From assembly GCA_014730275.1 (NCBI GenBank), contig WJIL01000148.1, positions 1 through 61,738 of the forward strand: 61,738 nucleotides of DNA, written 5' to 3'. Shown here one piece after another: positions 39,979-46,845 of this stretch. Under the pieces are notes generated by a model. It had not been told where the DNA came from and did no database searches. It saw only the letters and a program-made list of their open reading frames with translations. A program made the translations under genes and the position numbers. This DNA comes from Candidatus Lokiarchaeota archaeon (GTDB lineage Archaea; Asgardarchaeota; Thorarchaeia; Thorarchaeales; Thorarchaeaceae). Positions within the stretch are counted from its first letter, which is position 1; each line of letters starts with the position of its first letter.

Positions 39979-40130
39979 CAGGGTCTGACTCCAATAGGAG
40001 GTACTTGACAACCGCACGCGACGCACGAGCACTCCAACTTAAGGCTTTTCGTAAAGGAGACTCACAGAATATGGTCGCCACAATGCATACGTAAATATGA
40101 AGAGAGAATATCTGCAACTTGAAGCCAACT

Positions 40131-41000
40131 ATGACTCGTTGCTCTCTTTGCGGAAAAGAAGACCTTTGTTTCACGTGTCCATACTGCAATATGCCGTACT
40201 GCGCAGATCATAGACTGCCTGAAAACCACAATTGTCCAGCTATGAAAGAGGTGCATGAACGAGCTCGAGAGAAGCGATTGAGGCCGCAGGCACCAAGAAA
40301 GGTGGAACCCGAACAGAGCAAGGGGTTATCCATTTCACTGCTTCCCGAACTAACATCACAACCGAAGAGAAGAAGGAAGCAGAAGCGGTTTTCACAAAGA
40401 GAAATCAAGGATTTGCTCATCGCTTCAGTATTGGTAGTTCTTGTTGGTTTATCACTAACCGGGAACCCACCTATTATCGGGGGGTTGGCTTGGTTGTTTT
40501 CACCACTATGGTGGTACCCAGTAGCAACCATCAGCCTGTTTCTTACTGCTTTCATGGTACACGAGTTGGCACACAAATTCACATCACAAAGCTTTGGACT
40601 GTGGAGTGAATTCCGCATGACGCTCCAGGGCTACATACTTTCCGCAATGGCCATTTTGTTCAGGTTTCCAGTGTTTGGTACCGGAGCCGTCATGACCAGA
40701 GGAAGAGCAACACTTGAACAACATGGTAAAGCCAACTTGGCGGGACCATTATCCAATTTCATTATGGGTTTGATTCTGTCAGGAGTAGCAATCATCTTGT
40801 CTGTTTTGGGAATCTTTGTTTTTCCAGCCAACTTCATCATTACATATGGCATACAACTGAACGGCATCCTTGGCCTGTTCAACATGATACCGGTTCAACC
40901 ATTTGATGGGGGTACGGTGCTGCAATGGAACAAGAAAATATGGGCAATCCAAGCAGCTGGACTAGCCGCGCTTCTCATATTCGCATTCTTCGTCCTCTAG
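40131..41000 (+). CDS. AN1-type zinc finger fused to site-2 protease (M50)
   Basis: 289 residues from ATG 40131. Residues 4-35 form an exact AN1-type finger: C4, C7, C16, C19, C24, H27, H33, C35. A basic, disordered linker (RRRKQKRF) follows. From ~residue 92 there are about five membrane helices. The zinc-protease motif HELAH (144-148) and the second metal motif PVQPFDGG are in the order expected of S2P/M50 intramembrane proteases. Such enzymes cut transmembrane regulators or nascent peptides. The AN1 finger is a ubiquitin-pathway-linked module in eukaryotes. A TATA-like GTAAATATG at 40091-40099 suggests a short or absent leader. Confidence 0.83.
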   Translation: MTRCSLCGKEDLCFTCPYCNMPYCADHRLPENHNCPAMKEVHERAREKRLRPQAPRKVEPEQSKGLSISLLPELTSQPKRRRKQKRFSQREIKDLLIASVLVVLVGLSLTGNPPIIGGLAWLFSPLWWYPVATISLFLTAFMVHELAHKFTSQSFGLWSEFRMTLQGYILSAMAILFRFPVFGTGAVMTRGRATLEQHGKANLAGPLSNFIMGLILSGVAIILSVLGIFVFPANFIITYGIQLNGILGLFNMIPVQPFDGGTVLQWNKKIWAIQAAGLAALLIFAFFVL

Positions 41001-41080: not shown

Positions 41081-42619
41081 ATGCTATCAGCTGGCGGCGC
41101 AGATTCCAGTTTGAAGGAGTTATCAGTCTCCGCTTGGTTCTATCGGAACCGTACCATCGCCGGGTTTGACAATCCGGCCCGATCCCTGTATGTTTCAGTA
41201 AGGGAATTAGTGGAGAATGCTCTTGATGCCTGTGAAGAGGCCAAGGTACTACCTGAAATATCGGTATCACTTCAGAGAGAAAGCTCGCTGGATGATGGCG
41301 AAGATCTTTTTGCGGCTGGACCTCAGCTTTACTGTCTGACCGTTGAGGATAATGGAACCGGTATATGCCCAGAGAATGCACCTAAGTTGTTAGGCAAGAT
41401 GCTAACGGGTACAAAATATGCCCAGAAACAGAGCCGGGGAACATTCGGTCTCGGTGGGGCTTTAGCCCTCCTTTATGGACAAATTACAACGCAGAACCCC
41501 ATAGAAATCAAAACAAGAGAACATGGGGAACCCGTGGGGCATAAACTTGTTCTACAGCTTGATATTGAGGCGAATGAACCAATAATCCTTGAAGAAACAG
41601 ATTTCCCGAAGAATCAGGCAGGTCACGGCACTACAGTTTCTTACCATCTCAAAGGTGACTGGCTGAGAAGCAAACGAAGAATCATTGACTATTTCAGGCA
41701 AACCAGTATCATCGCTCCCTACGCGTCTCTTAGATTTGAAAATCCAGATGACGAGCATCTCCTATTCAAACGTGTAACAAGCTCCCTGCCCGATGTGCCT
41801 TCTGAAATGAAACCCCACCCAGAGGGAATAGATCTAGAGATGCTCAAGAAGATGTTAAGTGTAGCGGACAATTGGACATTGGCCGGATTCTTAAGAAGCG
41901 CATTTCATCGAGTGGGAGAAGTAACCGCCGAAAACCTTCTGGAACACTGTGGACTCGATGCAGAGAAAAATCCAAGTGACCTGACAAAAGCCGAACTAAA
42001 GCAGCTCATGAGGGGTATAGACACCTTTGAAGAGTTCCTTCCCCCTTCAGCTTCTGCTCTGTCCCCAGCTGGCGAAGAAGTTCTTTCAGCAGGAATCAAA
42101 AGGCTCGAACCACAATTTTTTGCCGTGTGTCGGAGAAAACCAAGCGTATACGAAGGGCATCCATTTATCGTCGAAGTGGGTGTGGCCTACGGTGGAGAAA
42201 TCAAAGAGGGTTTGGACCTCTATCGTTTTGCAAACCGAATTCCCTTGCTATACGACGAAGGCTCGGACGTATCAAACAAAGTTATGCGGGAGTTGAATCT
42301 TGGAAACTATGATTTGGATGAACAAGATAAACTCGCTTTCTTTACACACATATGTTCAACCCAGATTCCTTACAAGACAGTCGGTAAGGAGTATATCGGT
42401 AATGTGGACAGCATCAGACGTGAAATTGACCTGGGTTTCAAACAGTGTCTTCGAGATATTGCAACTAACGTGAGAAGAAAACATAGAGCGCGAAGAAAAC
42501 GGCGAAAGAAGAACAAATTGCAACAGTATTACAGATTCATATCGAGTACGCTTTCAGAATCCACAGGTCAAAAAGTCTCGATTGAAGCTCTTTTTCCTCA
42601 AGGGGGATGTAATCAGTGA
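41081..42619 (+). CDS. top6B: DNA topoisomerase VI subunit B
   Basis: 512 residues. The GHKL ATPase fold shows RELVENALDACEEA (N46 on the metal-binding helix), VEDNGTGI (about 88-95) and GTFGLGG (120-126). The H2TH-containing middle and the transducer domain follow, with RFANRIPLL and the switch-lysine motif PYKTVGKEYI near residue 435. A basic C-terminal tail (KHRARRKRRKKNK) ends it. The GTFGLGG and EGHPFIVE segments resemble plant TOP6B as I remember it more than most archaeal ones. AGGTGA before ATG 41081 fixes the start. It overlaps top6A by four bases (GTGA). Confidence 0.93.
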   Translation: MLSAGGADSSLKELSVSAWFYRNRTIAGFDNPARSLYVSVRELVENALDACEEAKVLPEISVSLQRESSLDDGEDLFAAGPQLYCLTVEDNGTGICPENAPKLLGKMLTGTKYAQKQSRGTFGLGGALALLYGQITTQNPIEIKTREHGEPVGHKLVLQLDIEANEPIILEETDFPKNQAGHGTTVSYHLKGDWLRSKRRIIDYFRQTSIIAPYASLRFENPDDEHLLFKRVTSSLPDVPSEMKPHPEGIDLEMLKKMLSVADNWTLAGFLRSAFHRVGEVTAENLLEHCGLDAEKNPSDLTKAELKQLMRGIDTFEEFLPPSASALSPAGEEVLSAGIKRLEPQFFAVCRRKPSVYEGHPFIVEVGVAYGGEIKEGLDLYRFANRIPLLYDEGSDVSNKVMRELNLGNYDLDEQDKLAFFTHICSTQIPYKTVGKEYIGNVDSIRREIDLGFKQCLRDIATNVRRKHRARRKRRKKNKLQQYYRFISSTLSESTGQKVSIEALFPQGGCNQ

Positions 42620-43764
42620 CCGAACGTAGGACAGAGATTCGAGCTGACGACGAAGTAGTTCCGCTCATCAATAACGTGCTAGACACACTTGCAGATACTC
42701 TTAATGACGGTTACTTCCCAGAAATTGGCTATTACGCTTCTTCCAAGTCAAATGTTGAATACGAGCCCGAATCGGGGTATACACACGTGGATGATTCCCC
42801 CTCGTACATGGATGGGCGCAAGGTGAAAAGCGCCAAAATGATTGCTGGGCTTACATACGGCCTATCTAGATTCAAAGAGCATCTTGAGCAAGGTATGTCG
42901 ATGTCATTGCGTGACTTCTACTACATGCATAAAGTCAAGGACGTAAAACAGGTCCTGAAAATCGGTAGCCAGAATGAGACTAACCGGATTATCAAGTTGT
43001 GTGAAAGGATTCTACGGAAAAATGGTCATTCGGTGCCTCGTGAGGAATTCGGCGTTGTAAGCTCTCCAAAAGGCACCTTCTATGGCGATGTCACTCTCTC
43101 TGATTTGTCAGGTAAAAGAATCACATGTGATGCAGCCGGCGAGTATGGCTGGTTCATTTCGTCAAGGCCCTCAGAAGTTGAAATTCATGATTTGAATATT
43201 GAGGCTGCAGTTTTTGTAGAGAAGGAAGCTATGGCGCGAAACCTGATTGAATTGGAAATCCCCGAGGAAATTGATATTGGAGTCGGTGCTCTTTTTGGAC
43301 AACCCGGTCGCAATATGCGAGCATGGATTCGTAAGCTATCACAGGAAGAGATCCCGATATTGGTTCTTGTGGACATGTCTCCGTGGTCTCTGAGAATATT
43401 CTCGACAATCCAAAGCAATAGTATAGAGCTAGCCAACATCCAGGGTCTAGCAGCTCCAGATGCCAATCTCATTGGCCTTACAACAGATGATTTCTGGACA
43501 AGTAACGGGCTACTTGCATCTATTGAACATACGCTTGAGCCTATGTCGAAATCTGATATGAGATGCGCTCGTCAGAACAAGGACATACCGGCAATCAAGG
43601 AAAACGAGATTCTCAAGCGAGAAAATGATGTTCTCATTCAAAAACGACGAAAAGGAGAACTCGAAGCTTTCAAGGCCTTTGGAATGCCTCTTGCTGAACT
43701 GAAAGAATTCTACATTCATTACATCCGAGAGAAGGCCCGTCAATATGATGTGAAACTGATATAA
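42616..43764 (+). CDS. top6A: Topoisomerase VI subunit A, with altered Toprim motif
   Basis: 382 residues, GTG start overlapping top6B by four bases. The catalytic 5Y-CAP domain has LRDFYYMHK, with Tyr103 as the likely nucleophile that attaches to DNA. In the Toprim fold, the acidic VEKEAMARNL (E202) is present, but the following metal motif that is D-x-D-P-[WY]-G in Top6A/Spo11 reads D253-M-S255-P-W-S: the second Asp is Ser and the Gly is Ser. The GKGxPD region is also changed (GQPGRNMRAW). It may cleave poorly or with altered metal use. B and A subunits together would pass one DNA duplex through another. Confidence 0.85.
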   Translation: MTERRTEIRADDEVVPLINNVLDTLADTLNDGYFPEIGYYASSKSNVEYEPESGYTHVDDSPSYMDGRKVKSAKMIAGLTYGLSRFKEHLEQGMSMSLRDFYYMHKVKDVKQVLKIGSQNETNRIIKLCERILRKNGHSVPREEFGVVSSPKGTFYGDVTLSDLSGKRITCDAAGEYGWFISSRPSEVEIHDLNIEAAVFVEKEAMARNLIELEIPEEIDIGVGALFGQPGRNMRAWIRKLSQEEIPILVLVDMSPWSLRIFSTIQSNSIELANIQGLAAPDANLIGLTTDDFWTSNGLLASIEHTLEPMSKSDMRCARQNKDIPAIKENEILKRENDVLIQKRRKGELEAFKAFGMPLAELKEFYIHYIREKARQYDVKLI

Positions 43765-43800
43765 GTCGCGAATGGCTTTGATGAGTCGAGGATGGCTGTG

Positions 43801-44472
43801 ATGTCCCAAAAGAGGGAAGAATTGCTTGGATTGTTTGACGAGTTCAAAAACGAGCTCGTAAAAGTGATGGATGACCGGGATGCATTCGAAGAGAAGAATG
43901 AAGAGCTCCGGAGTGCACGTAGAGAAGCTGAAGAGAAAGCTTGGGCTGCAGAGGAGAAACTTGAGTCCCTAGAAGAAAGACTCAGTAAACTTGAAGCCGA
44001 AAACGACAGGCTGGAAAAGGAATTAACCGAGAAAACAGAGAAACTTGAAGAACTGAAAAGTCAGCTTGAAAGTGCAGAAACAACTAGAGATCAAGAACTG
44101 GAAACTCTGCGGACAGAACGCGATGAGCTTAAAGCTGAGATGGGACAAATCACTCAGAAACTGGAAAGGGTTTCGGAGTTGTATCGTGAAACATCAGCAG
44201 AGAAAGAAGCATTACAAGAGAAGGTTGATGTCAGTGATTTACTAGGCGTTTACGTGTTGCTTCTGGAAACAGTGTTCTATGGTAAACCACATGCCCGAAT
44301 ACTTTATACTCTTCATGATACGCAAACCGCAATAAACAGAAAACACTTAGCAGACAGCACGGGGATTCAACCTGCACAAGTTCTCAAGGCCATTCATGAC
44401 TTGGCAAATGCCAATCTCATTGAATATGATGAACAAACGCAGGAAGCGAGATTGATAAAAGACATCCTTTAG
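43801..44472 (+). CDS. Coiled-coil protein with C-terminal winged helix
   Basis: 223 residues from ATG 43801 (GAGG nine bases upstream; ATG 43792 is too close to it). Residues ~10-145 are one long parallel coiled coil (heptads such as EEKLESLEERLSKLEAEND, EELKSQLESAE). The C-terminal ~75 residues form a winged helix (ARILYTLHDTQTAINRKHLADSTG, VLKAIHDLANANLIEYD). The DNA-binding end is likely. It lies 36 bases after top6A and 47 before a nuclease gene, so it may be a subunit or regulator of the topoisomerase complex. A similar layout recurs at 49444-50898. Confidence 0.7.
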   Translation: MSQKREELLGLFDEFKNELVKVMDDRDAFEEKNEELRSARREAEEKAWAAEEKLESLEERLSKLEAENDRLEKELTEKTEKLEELKSQLESAETTRDQELETLRTERDELKAEMGQITQKLERVSELYRETSAEKEALQEKVDVSDLLGVYVLLLETVFYGKPHARILYTLHDTQTAINRKHLADSTGIQPAQVLKAIHDLANANLIEYDEQTQEARLIKDIL

Positions 44473-44519
44473 GGATTGGTAAGTGTAGCTTCCGAAACGA
44501 AGGTACAGGTTGAGAAATA

Positions 44520-45521
44520 TTGAGTGATCGCAGCATCATAGGACAGCCCATAAAGAAGCATGTGAAAAGATACAATTTATGGAGGAAAATTGATTCCATT
44601 CTTGGTTTGCTGGGGGACGATGCTAAGAACGTGGTATCTTGGGCATATAGAGAAGCAAAACGGCAGCTTGAAGAAGAAGGAAAGAACGAGAAGAAAATTG
44701 GTTCAAATGCGTACAATCTCCTCGCCAAAGAAGCAGCCATTCGACTTGTACAACAAAACCACGAATATGGAAAAATGACAACGAAAAGCGAGGTGCGCAA
44801 AAAAACAGGCTATAACGCGATGATGCCCAAGCTTTTCAGAGATGCAGGCGTCAGACATCCTCAAGAAGCTAGAAATCTCAGACACAATCTATTTCATCAT
44901 GCCTTTTCGCTACTGATTGAGAAGATTCTACCCGATACCACCAAGAGCATCCCCTCAACAGGAGGCAAACTATCTCCTGATTTGCTTGTTAGAGGGGGCA
45001 ATCCGGAATGGTCTATGTCTGTAGAATACAAGGGATACAGATCGATAACGCTAGTTAGTGAATCAGAATTGTTGAAAGCTATGAGATATCAGGCAGAATA
45101 TGGTTCCTCGTGGCTTGTAACGACCAGTACAAAAAGTGTGAGGGATTTGTATGGGTCTGAGATTACATCGAAAGAACTGATTGAAAGGGGACTTCCTCGG
45201 CTTAGAAGAATCAGCAGAAAACGGACATACACACAGGAACAGAGAGAGAAGCGAGGTATAGCTCTCAAGGGAATCAGGCATCTGAAGAAACAGAGAGGAA
45301 TCAACCTAAAGACGAAACTGGTATCAGCTGAGAAACTAATAGAATCTTGCCAGAAGGGAGAACCAATCAAAGGTGTGGCAATAACAACAGGCCTAGAGAT
45401 GAAGGAGATGTTGCAGAAAGAAGGGCTTGAAGAAGCCGCTAACGATGTTCTTCGAGTGATGAAACTACCCGCCCAGTTATTGCACAGTGATAAAGTCACT
45501 TCCTTGCGATTAATTGGGTAG
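44520..45521 (+). CDS. PD-(D/E)XK nuclease-like protein next to topoisomerase VI
   Basis: 333 residues, TTG start with AGGTTGAG upstream. The N-terminal ~120 residues are helical and basic (SNAYNLLAKEAAIRL, TKSEVRKKTGYNAMMPKLFRDAGV). The nuclease signature follows: SPDLLV (P153-D154), then VEYKGYR (E169-Y-K171), spaced 14 residues, the classic PD-X-EXK active site. A helix, LKAMRYQAEYGSSWLVTT, then completes the fold. The C-terminal third is basic (RRISRKRTYTQEQREKR). The protein family is not one I can name. As the fourth gene in the top6B-top6A-coiled-coil run it may process ends made by, or act in place of, the altered Top6A. Confidence 0.72.
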   Translation: MSDRSIIGQPIKKHVKRYNLWRKIDSILGLLGDDAKNVVSWAYREAKRQLEEEGKNEKKIGSNAYNLLAKEAAIRLVQQNHEYGKMTTKSEVRKKTGYNAMMPKLFRDAGVRHPQEARNLRHNLFHHAFSLLIEKILPDTTKSIPSTGGKLSPDLLVRGGNPEWSMSVEYKGYRSITLVSESELLKAMRYQAEYGSSWLVTTSTKSVRDLYGSEITSKELIERGLPRLRRISRKRTYTQEQREKRGIALKGIRHLKKQRGINLKTKLVSAEKLIESCQKGEPIKGVAITTGLEMKEMLQKEGLEEAANDVLRVMKLPAQLLHSDKVTSLRLIG

Positions 45522-45619: not shown

Positions 45620-46009
45620 TTGCAGCATCAGAGGAAAGAGGTCCTTGAACCCCTCAAGGAATTGCTTGTAGAGCTATCCAATAAATCTCCCATACTCGGA
45701 GCTGCTCTCTTCTCGGTGGAGGGATTGCCCTTAGTCAGTCACATCCATTCAGGTGTCGAAGAAGTATCCATTGCTGCAATCGTTGGAGGCATACAGTCAG
45801 CAGGAGAAATGGCTGTAACAGAATTGAAACAGGGGGAACTAAAATCAATCATTGTAGAAGGAACACTCGGAACAACACTAGTGATTTCTATTCCTGGTGA
45901 TTATCTGCTCACAGTAACTGCCCCAGACAATGCCAAATTAGGCCTCATATTCAATGATGCAAAGAAAGCGGGTCGCAAAGCCGCACGAATACTCAAGGGC
46001 ATATTATAA
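45620..46009 (+). CDS. Roadblock/LC7-domain protein
   Basis: 129 residues, TTG start with GGAGG eight bases upstream. Fold markers: EPLKELLVELSNKSPILGAALFSVEGLPLV, then a helix SIAAIVGGIQSAGEMAVTEL, IIVEGTLGTTLVISIPGDYLLTVTA, and the final helix with KAARIL. This is the usual Asgard/bacterial MglB-like roadblock core that modulates small GTPases. The NifB-like gene begins five bases after its stop, so they form an operon. It is distinct from the roadblock protein at 27598. Confidence 0.85.
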   Translation: MQHQRKEVLEPLKELLVELSNKSPILGAALFSVEGLPLVSHIHSGVEEVSIAAIVGGIQSAGEMAVTELKQGELKSIIVEGTLGTTLVISIPGDYLLTVTAPDNAKLGLIFNDAKKAGRKAARILKGIL

Positions 46010-46014
46010 GATGG

Positions 46015-46845
46015 TTGAATGCTTTGCAAGAGTACCCATTTGAGCATCATCCCTGTTGGTCGAATGAAAGAAGGCAACTCTGGGAAAGAATCCACCTTCC
46101 TGTTGCCCGCAGATGCAATCTCAAGTGCGGATTTTGTGATCACAAATTTGGAGCCAATTGTCATCAATCTAAGCCTGGTCTATCCACAAAATTATTCTCT
46201 GTAGATGAAGCACTAACTTCACTGGCTAAGGAAATACAACACAGGGAGAATCTGCAAATAGCTGCCATTTCTGGACCAGGGGAGCCACTGGCAAATCCAG
46301 AGACACTCGAGCTGTTCTCACGGGCACGGAAAAAATACGAGCAGCTGGAATTTTGTCTTAGCACAAATGGAACGCTCCTGGAAGAGAAACTTTTCAGTCT
46401 TGTCGAATTCGGAGTTCGCACGATTACCGTTTCAATGAGTGCCTACAATCCCTCCACAGCTGAGAGAATCTATGAATGGGCCAGATTTGACGGTAACAGG
46501 GTTACAGGGCTTTCAATGGCCGAGGAGATTGTGAATCGACAAATCCGCGGTATATTCGAAGCAGTCTCTGCTGGAATTCATGTCAAGGTAAATACAATCC
46601 TCATACCCAGTATCAACAAAGATGAGATGCAAGGCCTTTCCAAGGTATTGGCAGATATTGGAGTGGATATGCAGAACATAATCCCGTTGGTTCCGTTGGA
46701 CAATATGTCTGATCTTCGTCCACCTAGTGAAAGCGAATTACAGGCTGCGAGAGAAGCTGGATCAAAATATCTCCCTCAGTTTCTCCATTGCAAGCAATGC
46801 AGGAGCGACGTGGTAGGCATACCAGGGAACGATACTATTCTATAG
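46015..46845 (+). CDS. NifB-like radical SAM protein
   Basis: 276 residues, TTG start (46015; TTG 46024 also possible). HPC (12-14), RIHLPVARRCNLKCGFC (CX3CX2C, C34, C38, C41) with a further Cys at 49 and SKPG, GPGEPLAN, CLSTNG, RTITVSMSAYNPSTAERIYEW, KVNTILIPSINK and the final HCKQCRSDVVG together follow NifB, which builds the carbide-containing precursor of the nitrogenase cofactor. No NifX-like tail and no nifHDK genes are seen, so nitrogen fixation is not implied. It is coupled to a roadblock gene; its stop overlaps the end of the convergent longin-like gene by 11 bases. Confidence 0.7.
   Translation: MNALQEYPFEHHPCWSNERRQLWERIHLPVARRCNLKCGFCDHKFGANCHQSKPGLSTKLFSVDEALTSLAKEIQHRENLQIAAISGPGEPLANPETLELFSRARKKYEQLEFCLSTNGTLLEEKLFSLVEFGVRTITVSMSAYNPSTAERIYEWARFDGNRVTGLSMAEEIVNRQIRGIFEAVSAGIHVKVNTILIPSINKDEMQGLSKVLADIGVDMQNIIPLVPLDNMSDLRPPSESELQAAREAGSKYLPQFLHCKQCRSDVVGIPGNDTIL

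Follow-up and report, generated by a model that had tools for sequence, protein, structure and literature searches.

The locus and its topoisomerase VI genes

The window analysed here, a stretch of 61,738 nucleotides from a thorarchaeotal genome (contig WJIL01000148.1), carries four tandem, co-oriented genes on the forward strand, as the first-pass annotation had described and direct reading of the sequence confirms. The first, top6B (positions 41081-42619), encodes a protein with a GHKL ATPase, an H2TH region, a transducer and a switch lysine, and overlaps by 4 bases with top6A (42616-43764); the two are the third copies, B3 and A3, of their genes in this genome. They are followed by the gene for a coiled-coil/winged-helix protein, termed CC (43792-44472), which lies 27 bases from top6A when counted from its first ATG and 36 bases when counted from its second, and, after a gap of 47 bases, by that for a PD-(D/E)XK-like protein, termed NUC (44520-45521). 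The neighbouring genes are also encoded on the forward strand: a protein that combines an AN1 zinc finger and an M50 peptidase (40119-41000) is encoded directly upstream, a position that is conserved across Thorarchaeota, while a Roadblock/LC7 protein (45620-46009) and a radical SAM protein (46015-46845) follow downstream within a conserved gene order.

Top6B matches the Pfam families Topo-VIb_trans (PF09239, E=5e-52) and HATPase_c (E=9e-8), as well as the Saccharolobus shibatae Top6B structure 2ZBK (E=8e-109). Its motifs, located at residues 41, 90, 120, 182 and 430, include the ATPase motifs and the switch-lysine sequence PYKTVGKE, all read directly, in agreement with the earlier description of these motifs as intact; the ATPase, transducer and switch lysine expected of topoisomerase VI are therefore all present. 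Top6A matches TOP6A-Spo11_Toprim (PF21180, E=3.4e-21, or about 3e-21) and TP6A_N (PF04406, E=1.5e-6), and possesses both the catalytic tyrosine of the winged-helix domain (Y103) and the Toprim glutamate (E202). When 22 diverse Top6A sequences are aligned, R99, Y103, Q119, R142, E202, D253 and E348 are invariant, whereas the column of the second DxD aspartate is occupied in the window by S255, within the sequence D253-M-S255-P-W-S (codons 253-255, positions 43372-43380, forward strand). Direct reading and alignment thus uphold the motif as it had first been reported, with Y103 and E202 retained.

The first-pass annotation had pointed to changes in the metal motif and in the GKGxPD region, of which only the aspartate-to-serine change at 255 is a real departure, because the active and well-studied Top6A of Methanosarcina mazei reads DGDPWS and GQPARS, so that neither W-S in place of W-G nor the changed GKGxPD region is anomalous. 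The M. mazei enzyme (2Q2E, 9O8P, 9O0G) shares with the window the Top6A/Top6B pair, the catalytic tyrosine, the glutamate, the first aspartate, the D-P-W-S and GQP sequences and an arginine-glutamate clasp; this clasp, R102-E342 in M. mazei, has been shown to restrain cleavage (PMC13040014) and is intact in the window as R99 and E348. On the other hand, M. mazei has DGD where the window protein has DMS followed by a longer loop after D292, and a glutamine two residues past the clasp glutamate where the window protein has a glutamate (E350). With the first DxD aspartate kept and the second replaced by a residue at a site reported as non-essential in Spo11, the enzyme is best filed as a variant rather than a canonical topoisomerase VI. 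Judged by its sequence, the pair is an intact, third DNA topoisomerase VI with a serine-altered metal site.

The usual picture is that of one topoisomerase VI per archaeon. The source genome (3.64 Mb, 99.5% complete) encodes three Top6A and three Top6B proteins, which bears out the suggestion that the window holds an additional copy beside canonical top6BA. The two further pairs have a normal DxD: the Top6A on contig 68 reads DGDPWG and has its Top6B just upstream, and that on contig 38 reads DSDPYG and is joined to many consecutive helix-hairpin-helix repeats. The latter protein (contig 38, 54500-62500; 1656-4508 of the extracted locus, reverse strand) is encoded by an open frame of 950 amino acids in which Top6A lies behind approximately seven such repeats, with a partner Top6B about 2 kb away, and fusions of this kind are also found in other Thorarchaeota. 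Of the 47 genomes in the family, which its named relatives place in Thorarchaeota, most have three Top6B genes, three topoisomerase VI sets being usual, and no type IIA topoisomerase was detected in 46 of these 47, the exception being a metagenome-assembled genome with 7% contamination.

The DxS clade of Top6A

Top6A proteins with the DxS motif occur in more than 30 Thorarchaeota genomes, are 67-94% identical and all read D-[ML]-S-P-W-S. Together with more distant relatives they group in a single clade (support 100/100), which is recovered again once the longest branches are taken out, although its joining of M. mazei in the tree is possibly a long-branch effect. S255 is fixed in every sequence of the clade that is read through the site, down to 37% identity. 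In the set of 22 sequences, which does not contain M. mazei or S. shibatae, 26 positions separate the clade from canonical Top6A, including S255, S258, R260, N268 and E350; not all of these are unique to it, since S258 and R260 are also found in M. mazei and a glutamate at position 350 in S. shibatae.

Outside Asgard archaea, a scan of named genomes returned a single match, labelled Thermoproteota archaeon B8_G17 (L119, also G228; QMVU01000042), which led to a second archaeal phylum, possibly Korarchaeota. In that phylum the DxS protein is the sole Top6A in 25 of the 27 genomes that encode any, the remaining two having a DSDPYG Top6A, and a type IIA topoisomerase was found in none of 29 genomes, while control genomes were positive as expected; the completeness of these genomes is not stated, so that one gene may have been missed in any single genome, which is unlikely in 25. 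The second-phylum proteins resemble that of the window in their D-[LF]-S-P-W-S motif, their 37-42% identity to it and their clade, and differ in being the sole Top6A and in having no CC or NUC beside them; in B8_G17 the genes lie in a housekeeping, translation-factor operon (aIF1A-RIO1-KH-Top6B-Top6A). A comparable case is found within Asgard archaea, where the Top6A of one genome (G001, 94% complete) is solely of the DxS type and no type IIA enzyme was detected. A further genome of this type (G167) was discounted because of 12% contamination, a gene split over two contig ends and a sequence that nearly matches the one in G001, a genome of another family.

Published work on the second Toprim aspartate suggests that its loss can be tolerated. 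In yeast Spo11, E233 and D288 have been shown to be essential and D290, the equivalent of S255, to be dispensable: D290N has little effect and D290A a partial one, a pattern that the authors attribute to this residue acting at the non-catalytic metal site B alone (PMC11746154). The counterpart of S255 in M. mazei is D256; in the cleavage complex of that enzyme it lies, as does E202, about 4 Å from the metal, a distance too great for inner-sphere contact, although D256 is nonetheless listed among the residues around it (PMC13040014). According to a 2024 survey, the conserved residues are kept throughout the Top6A/Spo11 family with the sole exception of the DxN of SPO11-2, the plant proteins having an aspartate-to-asparagine change at the site equivalent to S255; the same survey cites work in which Escherichia coli topoisomerase I was harmed by loss of the second aspartate (PMC11302465). 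Like the window protein, SPO11-2 of plants and protists has lost this aspartate and remained an enzyme, but it carries asparagine rather than serine and works with a Top6B-like partner instead of a full Top6B. Our literature search returned no published description of a DxS Top6A, the archaeal proteins described so far all having aspartate at this site, and DxS is a variant new to the literature found, an exception to a near-invariant DxD for which the established mechanism leaves room.

Independent fates of the topoisomerase genes and their neighbours

CC is conserved in Thorarchaeota and, according to an AlphaFold2 model (pTM 0.36; used for secondary structure), consists of a 143-residue helix, predicted as a coiled coil, and a C-terminal winged-helix-like domain. 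NUC has been seen solely in Thorarchaeota among the genomes searched. Its residues P153-D154 and E169-Y-K171, already singled out by the first-pass annotation, are invariant in 27 homologues, and in its AlphaFold2 model (pLDDT 88.9) strands are predicted at 155-159 and 164-171, which would place a conserved P-D...(D/E)-x-K motif on a core sheet. The best eight Foldseek matches are all PD-(D/E)XK restriction enzymes, albeit weak ones (best E=0.02, TM about 0.2). NUC thus shares with restriction-type nucleases such as AspBHI, MspJI and Hjc the P-D..E-x-K strand pattern and a weak fold match, and differs from them in its long helical N- and C-terminal parts and in matching no sequence family; its sequence motif is that of a PD-(D/E)XK-like putative nuclease.

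A rival reading, which enlarges on the partner nuclease suggested by the first-pass annotation, is that DxS weakens cleavage or religation and that NUC, bridged by CC, provides or finishes the cutting of DNA within a four-protein machine. The close spacing and shared orientation of the genes, kept in about 30 Thorarchaeota, and the retention of the PD..ExK residues by NUC would agree with this reading. However, the gene order from the M50/AN1 gene through Top6B, Top6A, CC, NUC and Roadblock to the radical SAM gene is conserved across Thorarchaeota, and the genes further out on both sides likewise, so that the order expected among relatives was indeed found but extends to unrelated flanking genes; as it reaches well past the four genes, order alone is no proof of joint function. 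Moreover, in five genomes from four genera (G185, G190, G193, G194 and G215) Top6AB is cleanly missing between the M50/AN1 gene, which then adjoins CC, and CC itself, while CC and NUC remain. Two of these genera also hold a genome with Top6AB, and tblastn revealed no remnants of top6BA at the three such loci examined. A further genome (G189) is also devoid of a DxS top6A gene. When mapped onto the NUC tree, the presence of Top6AB requires six parsimony changes, a figure that takes in two uncertain cases at contig edges; the well-supported branches by themselves force only two. Conversely, DxS Top6AB occurs without CC and NUC in G001 and in B8_G17. Since each persists without the other, CC and NUC are not obligate partners of Top6AB, but neighbours of independent fate.

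Separate retention, with CC and NUC kept in at least five genomes lacking Top6AB, largely refutes a nuclease that supplements cleavage. The weakened cleavage that such a nuclease would make good is argued against by the 25 genomes in which DxS is the only Top6A and no type IIA enzyme was detected, and by strong purifying selection on top6A (dN/dS 0.039 between two genomes of the genus of the window). The first-pass annotation had itself named the same D-x-S in active homologues as an argument against weakened cleavage, and the sole enzyme of the second phylum very probably is such a homologue. A joint machine is accordingly considered improbable.

Probable activity and role of the variant enzyme

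With a probability of about 0.8, the top6B and top6A genes of the window appear to encode a complete and catalytically competent topoisomerase VI of the DxS clade, an accessory third enzyme in Thorarchaeota. DxS Top6A is very probably, and indeed almost surely, active, because DNA cutting is indispensable where it is the only type II topoisomerase. An accessory role is suggested by the two canonical Top6AB pairs in the genome and by relatives from which the third pair is repeatedly and cleanly missing, and we infer that its role in Thorarchaeota is specialised and non-essential. Two Top6A and two Top6B subunits would assemble as usual, and ATP-driven closure of Top6B would place Y103 of one Top6A at the metal that the second Top6A binds through E202 and D253, whereupon DNA would be cut, passed and resealed. 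S255 would stand in for an outer, non-catalytic ligand only, and part of the lost charge may be offset by E350, which is close to E348 of the clasp; canonical rows of the alignment have a glutamine at this position, but S. shibatae combines a glutamate there with DxD, and such compensation is therefore put forward only as a hypothesis. More broadly, it seems reasonably probable that the whole DxS clade, to which the second phylum's only type II topoisomerase belongs, performs cleavage and strand passage without the second aspartate, with a fixed serine and possibly E350, and that in gyrase-less Thorarchaeota it provides the specialised third of three enzymes.

The Spo11-like use that had also been envisaged would mean an enzyme that introduces programmed double-strand breaks to serve recombination but passes no strand, and the accessory status of the window copy as well as the aspartate-to-asparagine change at the same site of plant SPO11-2 (PMC11302465) could be read in this way. 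Such a use is nevertheless doubtful, given that Top6A is paired with a full ATPase/transducer Top6B retaining all motifs, not with a degenerate Top6B-like partner, and that the clade contains sole type II topoisomerases, which need strand passage. Neither is the window Top6A closer to Spo11 than the canonical copies: among PDB sequences it has no Spo11 match at E<=1, whereas a canonical paralogue matches at 0.005. The branch of yeast Spo11 is too long to be placed in the Top6A tree.

That the paralogue is decaying or catalytically dead and serves a structural purpose at best, as repeated absence in Thorarchaeota and the loss of one acidic ligand might suggest, is the least credible reading in view of the low dN/dS, the 67-94% identity across the family with every other active-site residue fixed, and the presence of the protein as sole copy in the second phylum.

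Other identities were discarded. Topo VIII and Mini-A, which are fused or lone A-type proteins on mobile elements, do not fit separate A and B genes in a stable chromosomal place; a viral or mobile-element origin was dismissed, A3 and NUC having no relatives in viral contigs; and a defence system was rejected, since PADLOC matched none of Top6A, Top6B and NUC, and its matches for CC are essentially to coiled coils only.

A serine fixed in a sole and presumably essential topoisomerase represents a natural experiment on how many acidic ligands are required for type II cleavage, and DxS proteins offer ready-made material for testing one- versus two-metal models. In addition, three complete topoisomerase VI sets in mostly gyrase-less archaea bear on how topological work is divided in archaea.

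Two minor observations concern the diversity of these genes. Comparison of positions 41081-43764 with the other genome of the genus (G219, locus L064) gave a synonymous divergence of 0.84 for top6A and 0.33 for the adjacent top6B, a gap that hints at recombination or gene conversion. In other Asgard families (L165, L178 and L180), Top6A reads DADIYG, DADVYG or DSDIYG, the normally fixed proline of D-x-D-P being replaced by valine or isoleucine with both aspartates kept.
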